Shown here: piece after piece, positions 22,389 through 60,896 of the stretch | Layout of the letters: each line of letters opens with the position of its first letter | Position numbering within the stretch: the stretch's first letter is position 1 | Source of the DNA: Halorussus salilacus | GTDB lineage: Archaea; Halobacteriota; Halobacteria; Halobacteriales; Haladaptataceae | Assembly: GCF_024138125.1 (NCBI RefSeq) | Contig: NZ_CP099993.1 | Location: 248,001 to 312,000 of the forward strand | DNA: 64,000 bases | Direction of reading: 5' to 3' | The notes under the pieces: generated by a model | The model's database searches: none | What the model was told of the DNA's origin: nothing | What the model saw: only the letters and a program-made list of their open reading frames with translations | Translations under genes and position numbers: made by a program

Positions 22389-22771
22389 GGCCGGGGTTCG
22401 CAGCGCGGTGGCCGACCGGCCATTCGCCGCGAATCGCCCGGCGAATCATCCAGCGTGGAATCGCCCGGCGAATCATCCGCCACGGGCGGGACTGAAAGGG
22501 GCCGCCCGCTCGCGCACCGTTTAGTCGCCTGCGCGACCCCTATCTGGGCCGGGCGGTGCTGAGAGGCCCAGATATGTCGCGTCAGCGACCGCGAGCGGGC
22601 GGGGGCTTTCTGACGGTTCACGGTGCAGGTGACTCCGGTCCGTAGCGAGCGGGCGGGGGCTTTCGAGGCGTTCTTGGTTACGGCACCTACGTTTCGGACG
22701 ACGACCGAGAAATCACACGAACTCGTTCCTGGGCGGCCAAACTCTTTACCGCTCGACACGAAACCCCACAC
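22389..22771. other. Gene-free region holding a repeated structured element
   Basis: Begins with two direct copies of GAATCGCCCGGCGAATCATCC (about 22430-22478), then the structured element at 22484-22663. No ORF here looks real. Confidence 0.6.
22484..22663 (+). ncRNA. Candidate structured RNA element, copy A
   Basis: 5' arm: GAAAG (22494-22498), GGG, CCGCCCGCTCGC. 3' arm: GCGAGCGGGCGG, GGG, CTTTC (ending 22610). The arms pair on both sides of a symmetric GGG/GGG internal loop. Inside are two further stems, CGCGAC/GTCGCG and ATCTGGGCC/GGCCCAGAT. A second 3' arm with the same sequence (GCGAGCGGGCGGGGGCTTTC) follows at about 22644-22663 and could compete for the 5' arm. The copy at 60.6 kb has the same architecture with a compensatory change. 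No transcription evidence is available. Confidence 0.5.
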
Positions 22772-54731: not shown

Positions 54732-56150
54732 TCAGAGGCTCCTGAGTCGGACTTCGTCGCCGGTGACCTCCTCGATGCGGTCGGGTTCGACGGTGTAGTC
54801 GTCGTCGTCGTGACCCTCCCAGCCGAGTCGCGTCCGGATGCGCTTGGCGAGACCGGGATGCGGGTCGACGTACACCCGGTCGGTGTCCTCGTCCACCTCG
54901 CTGATGACGCCGACGTCCTCGCCGTTGGCGTCGATGACCGTCTTGCCCACGTCGTCGTCGTCCAGCGTGACCGCCTCCGCGGTTGCGGGTTCGGCCCCGG
55001 TCTCGTCGCCCATCGCGGTCGTCTCGTCGGCGGGTGGCTCGTCGCCCATCGAGGCCGTTCCCTCGGTCGTCCCGGCCTCCGTCGTCTCTGTGGTCGTCTC
55101 CGTCGTCGTGGTCGTCTCGGTCGTCGTCGTCCCCTCGACCCCGACGATTTCGGTGACCTCGTCGGTCTCGACCAGTTCGCTCTCGACGATTCGGCTGTCG
55201 ATGGTCTCGGAGCTGACGACCTCCTCGCTCACGAGTTCGAACCGGAGTCGCGTCCGGTCGAGGACCTCGTCCTCGATGGTCCGACGCTCGTAGAGTTCGG
55301 TCAGGACGGCCTGGTCCTCGGTGAACTCGCTCTCCATGTGCCCGCTCTCCACGACGTCGATGTCCTCGGTCACGACCTCGCCGCCGAGCAGGTCGCTCTC
55401 GACGATGGTCCGCTGGACGCCTTCGAGGTCGACGTGGCCCTCCAGCGTGTCGGATTCGACGGTCTCGGTCCCCTCGACCTCGTGGTCGACGACCCGGCTC
55501 TCGACCGTCTTGCGCTCGATCACCTCGCGGGTCACCTCCCGGGTCTCGTCCACGTCGACCGTGATGACCTCCTGCTCGACCTCCATCGTCTCGTCGTCCC
55601 AGCCGACGGTCTCGTCGTCCTCGACGACCGCGATGCGGCTTCCCTCCTCGCCGAGGTGGATTCCGGCGATCTCGCGCCGGACGAGGCGGCTGTCGATGAC
55701 CTCGTCGCGTACCACCTCGCTACCGATTATCTCGCTCTCGATGGTGTCTATCTCCCGGACCGTCCGCTCGACGACCGTGGTGTCGACGATCTCGCTCGTG
55801 ACGACCTCGCCTTCGAGCAGGGCGCGCTCGACCTCCTCGTCGTCGAGGGTCGCCCGCTCCATCGCCTCGGTCCGAGTGACCAGTTCGAACTGGTCGGCTC
55901 CCTCGCTGGGTCGGTCGGCGTGGCGGACCAGCACCATCTCGTCGTCCTCGAAGCGCTCGAAGAACTCGTCCCACGTTGTCTCCTCGACCGATTCCGTGGT
56001 CGTGCCCTGCTCGGGGTGATGGACGTAAAGCCGCCGCTCGTCGCTCTCGTCGGTCATGTACGCGGGCTTCGCGCCGCTGTCCTCGACCCACGTCCGTATC
56101 GTTTCGCGATCTGTCGTAATCTCGGTCTCTGTTGTCGTATTATCGGACAT
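54732..56150 (-). CDS. Repetitive beta-rich protein with C-terminal PRC-barrel
   Basis: 472 residues. The N-terminal 60 residues contain a small domain (IRTWVEDSGAKPAYMTD). The middle (about 100-350) is a run of short units of the type E-V-V-x-S-E-I-V, alternating hydrophobic and charged residues, which looks like a beta-solenoid or a long beta-sheet stack. A Thr-rich linker (TTTTETTTTTE) follows, and the last 90 residues are a PRC-barrel (DVGKTVIDANGEDVGVISEVDED). PRC-barrels bind RNA or protein partners. No signal peptide. The function of the repetitive part is unknown. Confidence 0.75.
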   Translation of the reverse strand: MSDNTTTETEITTDRETIRTWVEDSGAKPAYMTDESDERRLYVHHPEQGTTTESVEETTWDEFFERFEDDEMVLVRHADRPSEGADQFELVTRTEAMERATLDDEEVERALLEGEVVTSEIVDTTVVERTVREIDTIESEIIGSEVVRDEVIDSRLVRREIAGIHLGEEGSRIAVVEDDETVGWDDETMEVEQEVITVDVDETREVTREVIERKTVESRVVDHEVEGTETVESDTLEGHVDLEGVQRTIVESDLLGGEVVTEDIDVVESGHMESEFTEDQAVLTELYERRTIEDEVLDRTRLRFELVSEEVVSSETIDSRIVESELVETDEVTEIVGVEGTTTTETTTTTETTTETTEAGTTEGTASMGDEPPADETTAMGDETGAEPATAEAVTLDDDDVGKTVIDANGEDVGVISEVDEDTDRVYVDPHPGLAKRIRTRLGWEGHDDDDYTVEPDRIEEVTGDEVRLRSL

Positions 56151-56272
56151 TTCCCCCACCATGGACCTAGTCGGGGGGTGTTGCCTTAGGTGTAGTTGCC
56201 ACTCGCGTATGTGACTTTTCCCAAGAAGGTAGGCGGTCGGAACGTGGTCGAATCGAACGGATTCCGCCGACG

Positions 56273-56677
56273 TCAGTCCTCGCAACAGCCGCCGCCCTGC
56301 TGGCCGAAGTCGACCGCGAGCGGCTCGGAGATGGCGTCGTTGACTGCTTCGAGTTTGGCTTCGAGTTCCTCCTGGGCGTCGAGGTACTCCTCCATCACCG
56401 GGAGGCTGTGGAGTTCGTTCTGGGCCCGCTGGACCTTCTGAACGTCCTCCTGCGTCGCCTCGCCGGTCTGGCGCGCGAGCATGAACTCCTGGCGGAGTTG
56501 TTCGAACTCCTTGACCTTCTCTTGGGCTTGCTCGTCCTCTTCGACGGCGGCTTTGGTCTCCTCAAACCGCTGGTAGACGGGCGTCTCGGCGATGGCCTCG
56601 CCGAGTTCCGCGCCGAGTGCTTCGACGTGTGAGAGGTCCGCGGTCTCGTCGGCGTCCGCTTCGGTGTCGACGCTCAT
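56273..56677 (-). CDS. YlbF/YmcA-family protein
   Basis: 134 residues, nearly all helical: an N-terminal acidic stretch, then ALGAELGEAIAETPVYQRFEETKAAVEEDE cut by a turn, KVKEFEQLRQEFMLARQTGE and a conserved end. In Bacillus, YlbF and YmcA with YaaT act on RNase Y. In haloarchaea the role is unknown, though a link to RNA turnover is plausible. The C-terminus GQQGGGCCED has a Cys pair that may bind metal or a lipid. Confidence 0.85.
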   Translation of the reverse strand: MSVDTEADADETADLSHVEALGAELGEAIAETPVYQRFEETKAAVEEDEQAQEKVKEFEQLRQEFMLARQTGEATQEDVQKVQRAQNELHSLPVMEEYLDAQEELEAKLEAVNDAISEPLAVDFGQQGGGCCED

Positions 56678-56840: not shown

Positions 56841-57330
56841 GAACCGCACCGCACCCGCAGGCCACATCCCTCCCCAACCGACTGCGCTTCTCGGCTCCTC
56901 GTTCCACTCGTCGCCTGTGATGTCTGCGAACTGCGTTCACAGATCAGCGAGACGCGAAGCGTCTCGCAAGCCTCGTCCCTCGCGCACGTCGGCGCGACCA
57001 CTTACGGGTCGCGCCGGAAGACAAACCGCATCTTCCGAGCAATCGCGCCGTCGGCGCGATGACGCCAGCGCGCGCCACCGCACGAGGGCGAGCGAACGAG
57101 GGCAGGCGAACGAGGGCGGGCGCACGAGAGCCGAGAAACCGCCTTTTCCGATACTCGTCGAAAGCGGTGGCGCGTGCGGGCGAATCCCTCGTGGATTCGC
57201 CCATCCGCGCGAGGGATGAGGACCACAGACTGCGAACGGAGTGAGCAGTCGAGGACCGCAATCGGCTGGGGAGGGTCGTGGCCTGCGGTCGCGGTGCGGT
57301 CTTCATAGGTACCGGGAGTAGCTAGCTACT
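56841..57330. repeat. Long inverted-repeat element, copy 2
   Basis: Left arm 56841-56879 and right arm about 57266-57303 pair over about 38 nt with a few mismatches (core GGCCTGCGG with CTCCCCA/TGGGGAG). About 390 nt lie between. The right border runs on as CATAGGTACCGGGAGTAG, then CTAGCTACTC, almost as in copy 1. Shorter dyads inside include GCGAGACGC/GCGTCTCGC. No protein is encoded. Confidence 0.7.
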
Positions 57331-57515
57331 CGCAGTAGACTTCGGTATCGTGAGCGGATAGTTGCTCGCAGTAGACTTCGGTATCGTGAGCGGATAGTTG
57401 CTCGCAGTAGACTTCGGTATCGTGAGCGGATAGTTGCTCGCAGTAGACTTCGGTATCGTGAGCGGATAGTTGCTCGCAGTAGACTTCGATATCCTGAGCG
57501 GATCGTTGCTCGCGG
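57330..57515. repeat. Tandem array of 36-bp repeats upstream of dph2
   Basis: About five units of the type TTGCTCGCAGTAGACTTCGG followed by TATCGTGAGCGGATAG. The first four are nearly identical; the fifth has drifted (CGATATCC, GATCG). There is no spacer between units, so it is not a CRISPR array. It ends about 110 bp before the dph2 ATG. Confidence 0.92.
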
Positions 57516-57627
57516 CTGACTCCAGTATCGCTGTTAGAGCTGCAGTAGAACTCGCCGTCGTCACTGGGTCGCGCTACTCCACGCGAGAACATCGCGCTTA
57601 AACGTCCTCGCCGACAAAACGCCTTCA

Positions 57628-58677
57628 ATGAGCCAAGAGAACGAGTACAGCGAAGGGGACCTCCGGAACACCGGCATGTCCCTCAAACACGACCGGGAGT
57701 GGGACTACGAACTCGACCGCATCGTCGAGGCGGTCGAGGAGCGCGACGCCACGAAGGTCGGCCTCCAGTTCCCCGAGGGGCTGAAGCGCCGGGGTCCGAA
57801 GGTCGCCGACGACATCCGCGAACTCGTCTCGGACGACGTGACCATCATGCTGTCGGGCCAGCCCTGTTACGGGGCCTGCGACCTCGACACCTACCTGATG
57901 AAGCGCACCGACGTGTTCGTCCACTTCGGCCACTCGCCGATGAAGAACACGGACAAGGTCATCTACGTCCCCCTGTTCTCGAACGTCGACGTGTTCCCCA
58001 TCATGGAGGAGTCGCTGGCCGAACTCGCCGACCCCGCGGAGGACCCCGACGTGGGGCTGGTCACCACCGCCCAGCACATGAACCGCTTCGAGGAGATGAA
58101 GTCGTGGCTCGACGAGCGCGGCTTCGAGGTCCACACCCGGCGGGGCGACGACCGACTCACCCACGAGGGGCAGGTCCTCGGTTGCAACTACGCCTCCGCC
58201 GACATCGACGCCGACCAGGTGCTGTACGTCGGCGGCGGGAAGTTCCACCCCCTCGGCCTCGCGATGGAGCACCCCGACAAGAACGTCGTCATCGCCGACC
58301 CCGTGAACAACGTCGTGACGGTCGCCGACACCGAGAAGTTCCTCAAACAGCGCTACGCGTCGGTCCACAAGGCGATGGACGCCGAGAAGTGGGGCGTCAT
58401 CTTCTGCACGAAGATCGGACAGGGTCGCTGGGAGCAGGCCCAGGAGATACTGGCGGACAACGACGACGCCTACCTCATCACGATGGACGAGGTCACGCCC
58501 GACCGCCTCCGGAACTTCGACATGGACGCGTTCGTGAATACGGGGTGTCCCCGCATCACGACCGACGACGGCCCGCAGTTCCACAAGCCGATGCTCACCC
58601 CCGGCGAGTACGAGATAGCTGTGGGGAACAAGCCGCTGGACGAACTCTCGTTCGACACCTTCCACGGTACGTGGTAG
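57628..58677 (+). CDS. dph2: Diphthamide synthase Dph2 (radical-SAM-like Fe-S enzyme)
   Basis: 349 residues. The three cysteines that hold the [4Fe-4S] cluster are visible: CYGACD (near residue 82), GCNYAS (near 190) and NTGCPRITTDD (near 308). Dph2 uses SAM to transfer a 3-amino-3-carboxypropyl group to a His of elongation factor 2, the first step in diphthamide formation. Archaea use a homodimer. Start is the ATG giving MSQENEYSEGD. The 36-bp tandem array lies just upstream. Confidence 0.93.
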   Translation: MSQENEYSEGDLRNTGMSLKHDREWDYELDRIVEAVEERDATKVGLQFPEGLKRRGPKVADDIRELVSDDVTIMLSGQPCYGACDLDTYLMKRTDVFVHFGHSPMKNTDKVIYVPLFSNVDVFPIMEESLAELADPAEDPDVGLVTTAQHMNRFEEMKSWLDERGFEVHTRRGDDRLTHEGQVLGCNYASADIDADQVLYVGGGKFHPLGLAMEHPDKNVVIADPVNNVVTVADTEKFLKQRYASVHKAMDAEKWGVIFCTKIGQGRWEQAQEILADNDDAYLITMDEVTPDRLRNFDMDAFVNTGCPRITTDDGPQFHKPMLTPGEYEIAVGNKPLDELSFDTFHGTW

Positions 58678-60516: not shown

Positions 60517-60896
60517 GCCGAATCCGATGCGCTCGGTGACGCTTTCCACGCGAATCGGCCGGTGACGGATTCCTCGGGGTGGGAATGAAAGGGGCCGCCC
60601 GGTCGCGTCCGAAGGACTTGGTCGTCTCCGCGGGCAACTATTTCCGCGCCGATGCAGTGCGTTGCGGTGAGGCGCGGAAATATCCCGCGGAGCGACCGCG
60701 ACCGGGCGGGGGCTTTCGAGGACGAAATCATGGCTCCTTCTGAGTAGTCGTATAGCGGGCGGGGGCTTTCTGGCCCTTCACGGCTCTGTTACCTGCAATT
60801 CGAGGACGATTATCTGAAATTCCAAGCGAACCACCCACTCCACCGACCGACGAGCGAATCCCAACGTTCTCGTTCGCCCGCTCCCTCCACACTCCT
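60517..60896. other. Gene-free region holding the second full structured element
   Basis: Only the element at 60582-60775 is recognised here; the rest is promoter sequence for the methyltransferase gene. Confidence 0.6.
60582..60775 (+). ncRNA. Candidate structured RNA element, copy B
   Basis: 5' arm GAAAG, GGG, CCGCCCGGTCGCG (from 60586) pairs with 3' arm CGCGACCGGGCGG, GGG, CTTTC (ending 60717). The inner stems are CTCCGCGGG/CCCGCGGAG and ATTTCCGCGCC/GGCGCGGAAAT. Relative to copy A, one stem pair changed from C-G to G-C on both sides, a compensatory change. A second shorter 3' arm, AGCGGGCGGGGGCTTTC, follows near 60752-60769. The downstream strings (CGAGG and TGGCCCTTCACGG) occur in swapped order compared with copy A. 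Confidence 0.5.

Follow-up and report, generated by a model that had tools for sequence, protein, structure and literature searches.

Copy B, a nested hairpin element of Halorussus salilacus, is best read as one member of a dispersed, non-coding, mobile-type family of repeats of the Halobacteria, the plus strand of which would work as a folded single-stranded DNA (ssDNA) hairpin. We give this reading, at about 0.55, a little better than an even chance. The stems of the hairpin turn over as blocks by concerted evolution, and are not mended base by base. In the openly accessible literature, we found no earlier description of the repeat sequence, and this class-wide haloarchaeal repeat is apparently previously undescribed.

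Organization of copies A and B

The window, i.e., the whole stretch of 64,000 nt that was analyzed, contains copy B in an intergenic region, with both flanking genes in the plus direction. The element is made up of repeats of about 27 nt, a nested hairpin (the head), one tail unit of 53 nt, and then a partial unit. Copy A, which extends from 22430 to about 22700, has the same organization. The features of the two copies are as follows.

60530-60586 (+): copy B 5' module, two degenerate repeat units of about 27 nt, terminus TTCCTCGGGGTGGGAAT (from the sequence)
60587-60717 (+): copy B head, 131 nt, nested hairpin GAAAGGGG...GGGGGCTTTC (sequence, fold and alignment)
60587-60591 (+): copy B terminal arm GAAAG; partner CTTTC at 60713-60717 (fold)
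60592-60594 with 60710-60712 (+): copy B GGG/GGG internal loop, invariant, next to the terminal arm
60595-60607 (+): copy B 5' arm of the outer stem P1; partner 60697-60709 (alignment)
60602/60702: swapped pair within P1, G-C in copy B and C-G in copy A
60608-60616 (+): copy B optional mini-hairpin P2 with a GAA triloop, TCC-GAA-GGA (sequence)
60621-60634 (+): copy B 5' arm of P3, where covariation is strongest; partner 60684-60696
60639-60650 (+): copy B 5' arm of P4, with a conserved TAT at its start; partner 60671-60682 (..ATA)
60718-60770 (+): copy B tail unit 1, 53 nt, a repeat of the head's 3' end (AGCGGGCGGGGGCTTTC) (sequence)
60771-60812 (+), 3' limit approximate: copy B last tail unit, partial (TGGCCCTTCACGG...) (sequence)
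22430-22493 (+): copy A 5' module, two repeat units (sequence)
22494-22610 (+): copy A head, 117 nt (sequence and alignment)
22611-22664 (+): copy A tail unit 1, 54 nt; a partial unit starts at 22665 (sequence)

The original prediction placed copy B at 60582-60775; this interval cuts the element at both ends, leaving out the conserved 5' part, which starts near 60530, and the end of the partial tail unit, which extends to about 60812. Its description of the two copies is borne out: the same architecture with different inner stems is seen directly (heads of 117 and 131 nt), the C-G/G-C difference in the outer stem exists, at pair 60602/60702, and the tails stand in opposite order, TGACGG... before GAGGCG... 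in copy A and GAGGAC... before TGGCCC... in copy B, the second tail being partial in both. The predicted fold of copy B has an energy of -105.7 kcal/mol on the plus strand (z = -4.7 versus shuffles), and a z of -5.7 versus shuffles was obtained for the minus strand.

Two other repetitive features are present in the window. A 36-nt tandem repeat of six copies (57308-57523) lies immediately 5' of the gene starting at 57628, and a long open reading frame on the minus strand (54732-56285) has acidic, repetitive EVVxxEVIDS-like units and probably encodes a repeat protein of the PRC-barrel/stress type.

A dispersed family of intergenic copies

The 14-nt end GGGCGGGGGCTTTC occurs in four exact copies in the window, where 0.03 would be expected by chance even with one mismatch allowed, and in 125 exact copies in the 3.6-Mb genome, in which the reversed control pattern gave none. 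We collected about 65 heads from the genome. They are about 104-135 nt long and end in GAAAG/CTTTC, a terminal pair that is invariant among the aligned heads, and randomly paired heads have a mean identity of 0.80. Most are preceded by tandem units of about 27 nt like those of the copy B 5' module, which are copies of GGTGACACAATCCACCGGGAATCGGCC and are locally homogeneous. Each head is followed by 0-5 further full tail units, mostly spaced by 54 or 57 nt. These tails form a tandem array in which the 3' arm of the head itself is copied, and they were seen to be shuffled among copies, as had been predicted. Nearly all copies are intergenic and every gene orientation is represented; according to a home-made gene caller, the downstream gene is co-directional with the element for 47 of the 67 scored copies, and the flanking arrangement is (+,+) in 20 cases versus (-,-) in 8. 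Copy number within the one genus varies between 0 and more than 100.

Small hairpins of the GCGAGCGAAGCGAGC or CTCGTGAGCGGAGCGAACGAG kind are inserted within head stems at six loci, with pairing kept. We also noted type II heads, which have the GAAAG...CTTTC ends and an interior GCAAGCACCGCAG...GAGGAGCGCAGCGAG, both dispersed and at the loci of the RPA-like gene described below. A separate dispersed repeat family of Halorussus, GCGCGCCAGCGCGCG...GGTTGGGGAGGCGTGAGGCCYGCGGTCGCGGTGC (four loci in this genome and four others), lies directly 5' of some heads and, in other species, is the repeat found where copy A stands here.

The fold is conserved more widely than the sequence

Alignment of 52 heads from this genome showed that 98.3% of the cells form a standard pair. 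Double changes occur at 23 of the 40 pairs, and 201 cells are changed on both sides versus 6 on one side only; this count of compensatory against non-compensatory changes is the one that had been proposed as a check. All shuffled and slid controls fell far below the observed covariation, which marks the element as a hairpin of conserved fold, be it RNA or ssDNA.

A covariance model built from these aligned heads was then run on 242 haloarchaeal genomes. It found full-length matches in 77 of them, belonging to 39 of 74 genera. Among the class-wide heads, 95.4% of the cells are paired and double changes are present at 28 of 40 pairs, values obtained from an alignment that leans towards the structure of the model. 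P1, P3 and P4 vary freely, and conserved unpaired islands are found at GAAAGGGGC, CGCG-YTTR-..GTGGTCGTCTC, CTATC, GATATG, GAGCGACCGC and GGGGCTTTC. Thus, maintenance of the stems through sequence change, as originally predicted, is far above chance both in the 52 own copies and across the class. Since the exact 14-mer is almost restricted to the genus Halorussus while the fold is class-wide, the fold has spread further than its letters.

A search of Rfam gave no credible match to the element at gathering or at permissive thresholds. The phage records contained no DNA match to the element and no match to the RPA-like protein, and the 16 motif matches in viral contigs included none that fits the covariance model; a stricter pattern had no match there.

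Stems are replaced as blocks

We compared the heads with those of the nearest congener (G001), which has many copies; 61 heads were taken from it, 16 of them at a site in common with a head of this genome. The swapped pair of P1 is C-G in 53, G-C in 5 and G-G in 6 heads of this genome, and C-G in 2, G-C in 43 and G-G in 4 heads of the congener. This pair is therefore a species marker, and copy B has the majority state of the congener. The original prediction had seen a local compensatory event in the change from C-G to G-C, which is not borne out by these numbers.

Comparison of the two genomes at 11 shared insertion sites gave 69 differing paired positions: both sides have changed in 57 of these, one side in 3, and pairing is broken in 9. 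Head identity at shared sites is 0.82, versus 0.79 +/- 0.05 for random cross-species pairs. Because the stems differ on both arms and a shared site makes two heads hardly more similar than a random pairing does, copies at the same place have been rewritten and their stems replaced as blocks. The argument that pairing kept through sequence change reveals selection on structure holds as far as the pairing goes; the change came about by block replacement, and RNA specifically is not indicated. Replacement at shared sites also comes close to the gene conversion that the original prediction had named as its possible refutation, in the form of a single event.

Pairing of the tails with the 5' arm of the head was considered as a cause of the bases that they have in common and was rejected: in each of the 56 cases with both bases scored, the tail has the base of the 3' arm of the head, and this includes the 4 cases in which the 5' arm is mismatched.

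The copies are also present or absent from site to site, variable in number, and homogenized within species. The copy A site is empty in the nearest congener, and the congeners that could be read have no family member there, G005 with its probable remnant (GGTGGGCTGAACGGGCGAGGGCTTTC) being the one exception; in several congeners a different repeat is present at this site. The copy B site is filled in this genome, G001, G014 and H. halobius (L094), reduced in G004 and G013, and empty in G007 and G010. Empty sites thus exist in Halorussus, with congener flanks that are too diverged for reading exact borders or target-site duplications. The flanks of the Halobacterium site are likewise too diverged for exact borders. 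In four Halobacterium-like genomes (G051, G247, G110 and G083; L371-L381), type I and type II heads stand paired head to head, and the sides of the two types are swapped between species, as if the pair had been inverted.

Single-stranded DNA or RNA

Of the standard pairs, 0.5% in the heads of Halorussus and 2.5% across the class are of the G-T type, compared with 7.8% G-U in a control of only five haloarchaeal tRNAs. Wobble pairs are scarce in GC-rich helices generally. The P2 triloops, read on the plus strand, are GNA in 35 cases, TNC (the complement type) in 3, and other in 2. GNA loops are exceptionally stable in DNA mini-hairpins (Yoshizawa 1997, as cited in PMC6479982). None of the 117 heads has, in the 60 nt upstream, the TATA-like hexamer that would be expected of an independent ncRNA gene with its own promoter. 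The scarcity of G-U, the strand-specific GNA triloops and the lack of promoters together favor a plus strand that acts as folded ssDNA rather than as RNA; no single one of these sequence features is proof.

Linkage to an RPA-like gene on plasmids

The RPA-like gene is one for a single-stranded-DNA-binding protein. In a plain pattern count over 21 loci of this gene, 12 have the hairpin on the upstream side, at a distance of 387-609 nt and facing away in every case; the other three configurations were found at none of them. In Haloarcula, genome G197 left out, all copies located are on plasmids and are found some 500 nt 5' of a gene of the RPA/SOSS-B type; on the Haladaptatus plasmid, a homologous OB-fold gene takes the corresponding place beside the copy. 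Searches with the Haladaptatus protein gave matches in 192 plasmid records, among them pNRC100, pNRC200 and pHME132, and in most of the genomes tested, where they lie on plasmid-like contigs; the match in this genome is at G000:C3:150587-151480. The arrangement of hairpin and gene is the same in pNRC100, pHME132 and the Haladaptatus plasmid, and the hairpin is absent beside the gene of pNRC200.

Divergently upstream of the RPA-like OB-fold gene, many haloarchaeal genera have a conserved noncoding stretch of roughly 450 nt that is rich in inverted repeats (L411-L434, including L415, and L441-L443) and has no Rfam match. At its far end there is a head of type I, or one of the sister type II with its different interior, and the approximately 35 nt 5' of the plasmid hairpin resemble the 5' repeats of the dispersed copies. 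Part of the stretch carries the GGGCGGTGCGGAGAG motif of the heads' P4. The RPA-like protein, or a plasmid process that it serves, is the best available candidate for a partner of the hairpin, a link that is genetic only. More tentatively, and on balance doubtfully, the hairpin may be the recognition end of an undescribed ssDNA-based system of haloarchaea, plasmid-borne class-wide and consisting of the OB-fold protein, the noncoding region of about 450 nt and the hairpin, in which case the approximately 100 chromosomal copies of Halorussus would be its non-autonomous, self-homogenizing offspring.

Proposed mechanism and alternative explanations

The best single account, held with the confidence given at the outset, is a mobile repeat of BOX/REP-like kind that forms a folded ssDNA hairpin and is homogenized by repeated copying. 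A trans-acting, ssDNA-handling machine would recognize the hairpin by its terminal GAAAG/CTTTC pair, GGG/GGG loop and TATC/GATA islands, and would insert or rewrite copies. Stem letters would be replaced as blocks, through re-copying or conversion from other copies, so that the fold would be kept while the letters change. Exchange between 3' arms, which are repeated and 15-19 nt long, may lengthen and shorten the tails.

An alternative, which we consider unlikely, is a structured RNA element, in which read-through transcripts, or leaders or trailers, are selected as RNA, for instance for protein binding or modulation of neighboring genes. The strong covariation, in own heads and class-wide, the invariant unpaired islands on one strand and the excess of co-directional downstream genes obtained with our gene caller would all fit such an element, whereas the near absence of wobble pairs and of promoters 5' of the heads, the occurrence of all gene orientations, the wide range of copy number in one genus, the block swaps of stems at orthologous sites and the lack of an Rfam relative argue against it. 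Alternatively, the palindrome might be kept up neutrally: the arms would stay complementary through correction on a template, by template switching or by repair of hairpins as the DNA is replicated, while a functionless fold spreads passively. Nearly all stem changes are indeed double and Watson-Crick, the one-step outcome of a templated mechanism, and the local tandem repeats on both sides resemble products of slippage. Such upkeep, however, leaves unexplained the unpaired islands common to many genera, the one-strand bias towards GNA loops and the fixed place next to RPA-like genes, and we regard it as quite unlikely.

That fixed place bears on a further explanation, in which the dispersed copies are solo ends, remnants of MITE-like kind, and the autonomous unit from which they derive is plasmid-borne and comprises the hairpin, the noncoding region and the RPA-like gene. 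An arrangement that is fixed in several genera agrees with this, as does the similarity of the sequence before the plasmid hairpin to the dispersed 5' repeats. At the dispersed copies, however, there is no sign of the far end of the unit, the one past the RPA gene, and mobility of the unit itself remains putative. We consider this origin very unlikely.

The family appears to be one of the clearer cases of a fold preserved through block replacement. It is also a warning that covariation, commonly taken as proof of RNA, can arise from concerted turnover of hairpin DNA. The link to the RPA-like gene in plasmids such as pNRC100 makes the mover of the repeats testable in Halobacterium and Haloferax.

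Comparison with known repeats

PATEs are non-coding haloarchaeal repeats with palindromes and an ssDNA route, which have no terminal inverted repeats and have ends in common with IS605 (PMC3119063). The family studied here is likewise haloarchaeal, non-coding and palindromic, with a proposed ssDNA route; it is set apart from PATEs and IS605-derived elements by the invariant terminal GAAAG/CTTTC pair, and the TnpA loci of the genome lack the motif. SMR-A of Haloquadratum, of about 110 bp and tens of copies, has terminal inverted repeats unrelated to known transposons and an enigmatic mobility; identity between SMR copies commonly exceeds 95%, and PATEs and IS605 elements serve as their insertion sites (PMC3119063). 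The heads are similar to SMRs in size and in having terminal inverted repeats, but their copies are only about 80% identical and are intergenic.

REP/BIME elements are imperfect intergenic palindromes with a mismatched bulge that are handled as ssDNA by RAYT (Y1) transposases. Our family has such palindromes, as well as head-to-head pairs in one genus, but its hairpin is far larger and nested. The two Y1_Tnp genes of the genome have no GAAAGGGG or GGGGCTTTC ends within 1.5 kb.

The BOX elements of Streptococcus pneumoniae are dispersed, intergenic, foldable and modular repeats of 67-637 bp with variable tandem inner modules and >100 copies; they are mobilized in trans by an unknown enzyme and are almost restricted to a few streptococci (PMC3049150). 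The haloarchaeal family is of this kind, having dispersed intergenic copies that are modular, foldable and variable in the number of tandem modules. The likeness is one of organization; phylum and composition differ, and no homology to boxA, boxB or boxC is claimed. In contrast to BOX, the family belongs to another domain of life, in which it reaches 39 of the 74 genera sampled, its tandem modules are located 3' of the hairpin and copy the hairpin's own 3' arm, and the hairpin has a conserved place by a plasmid RPA-like gene.
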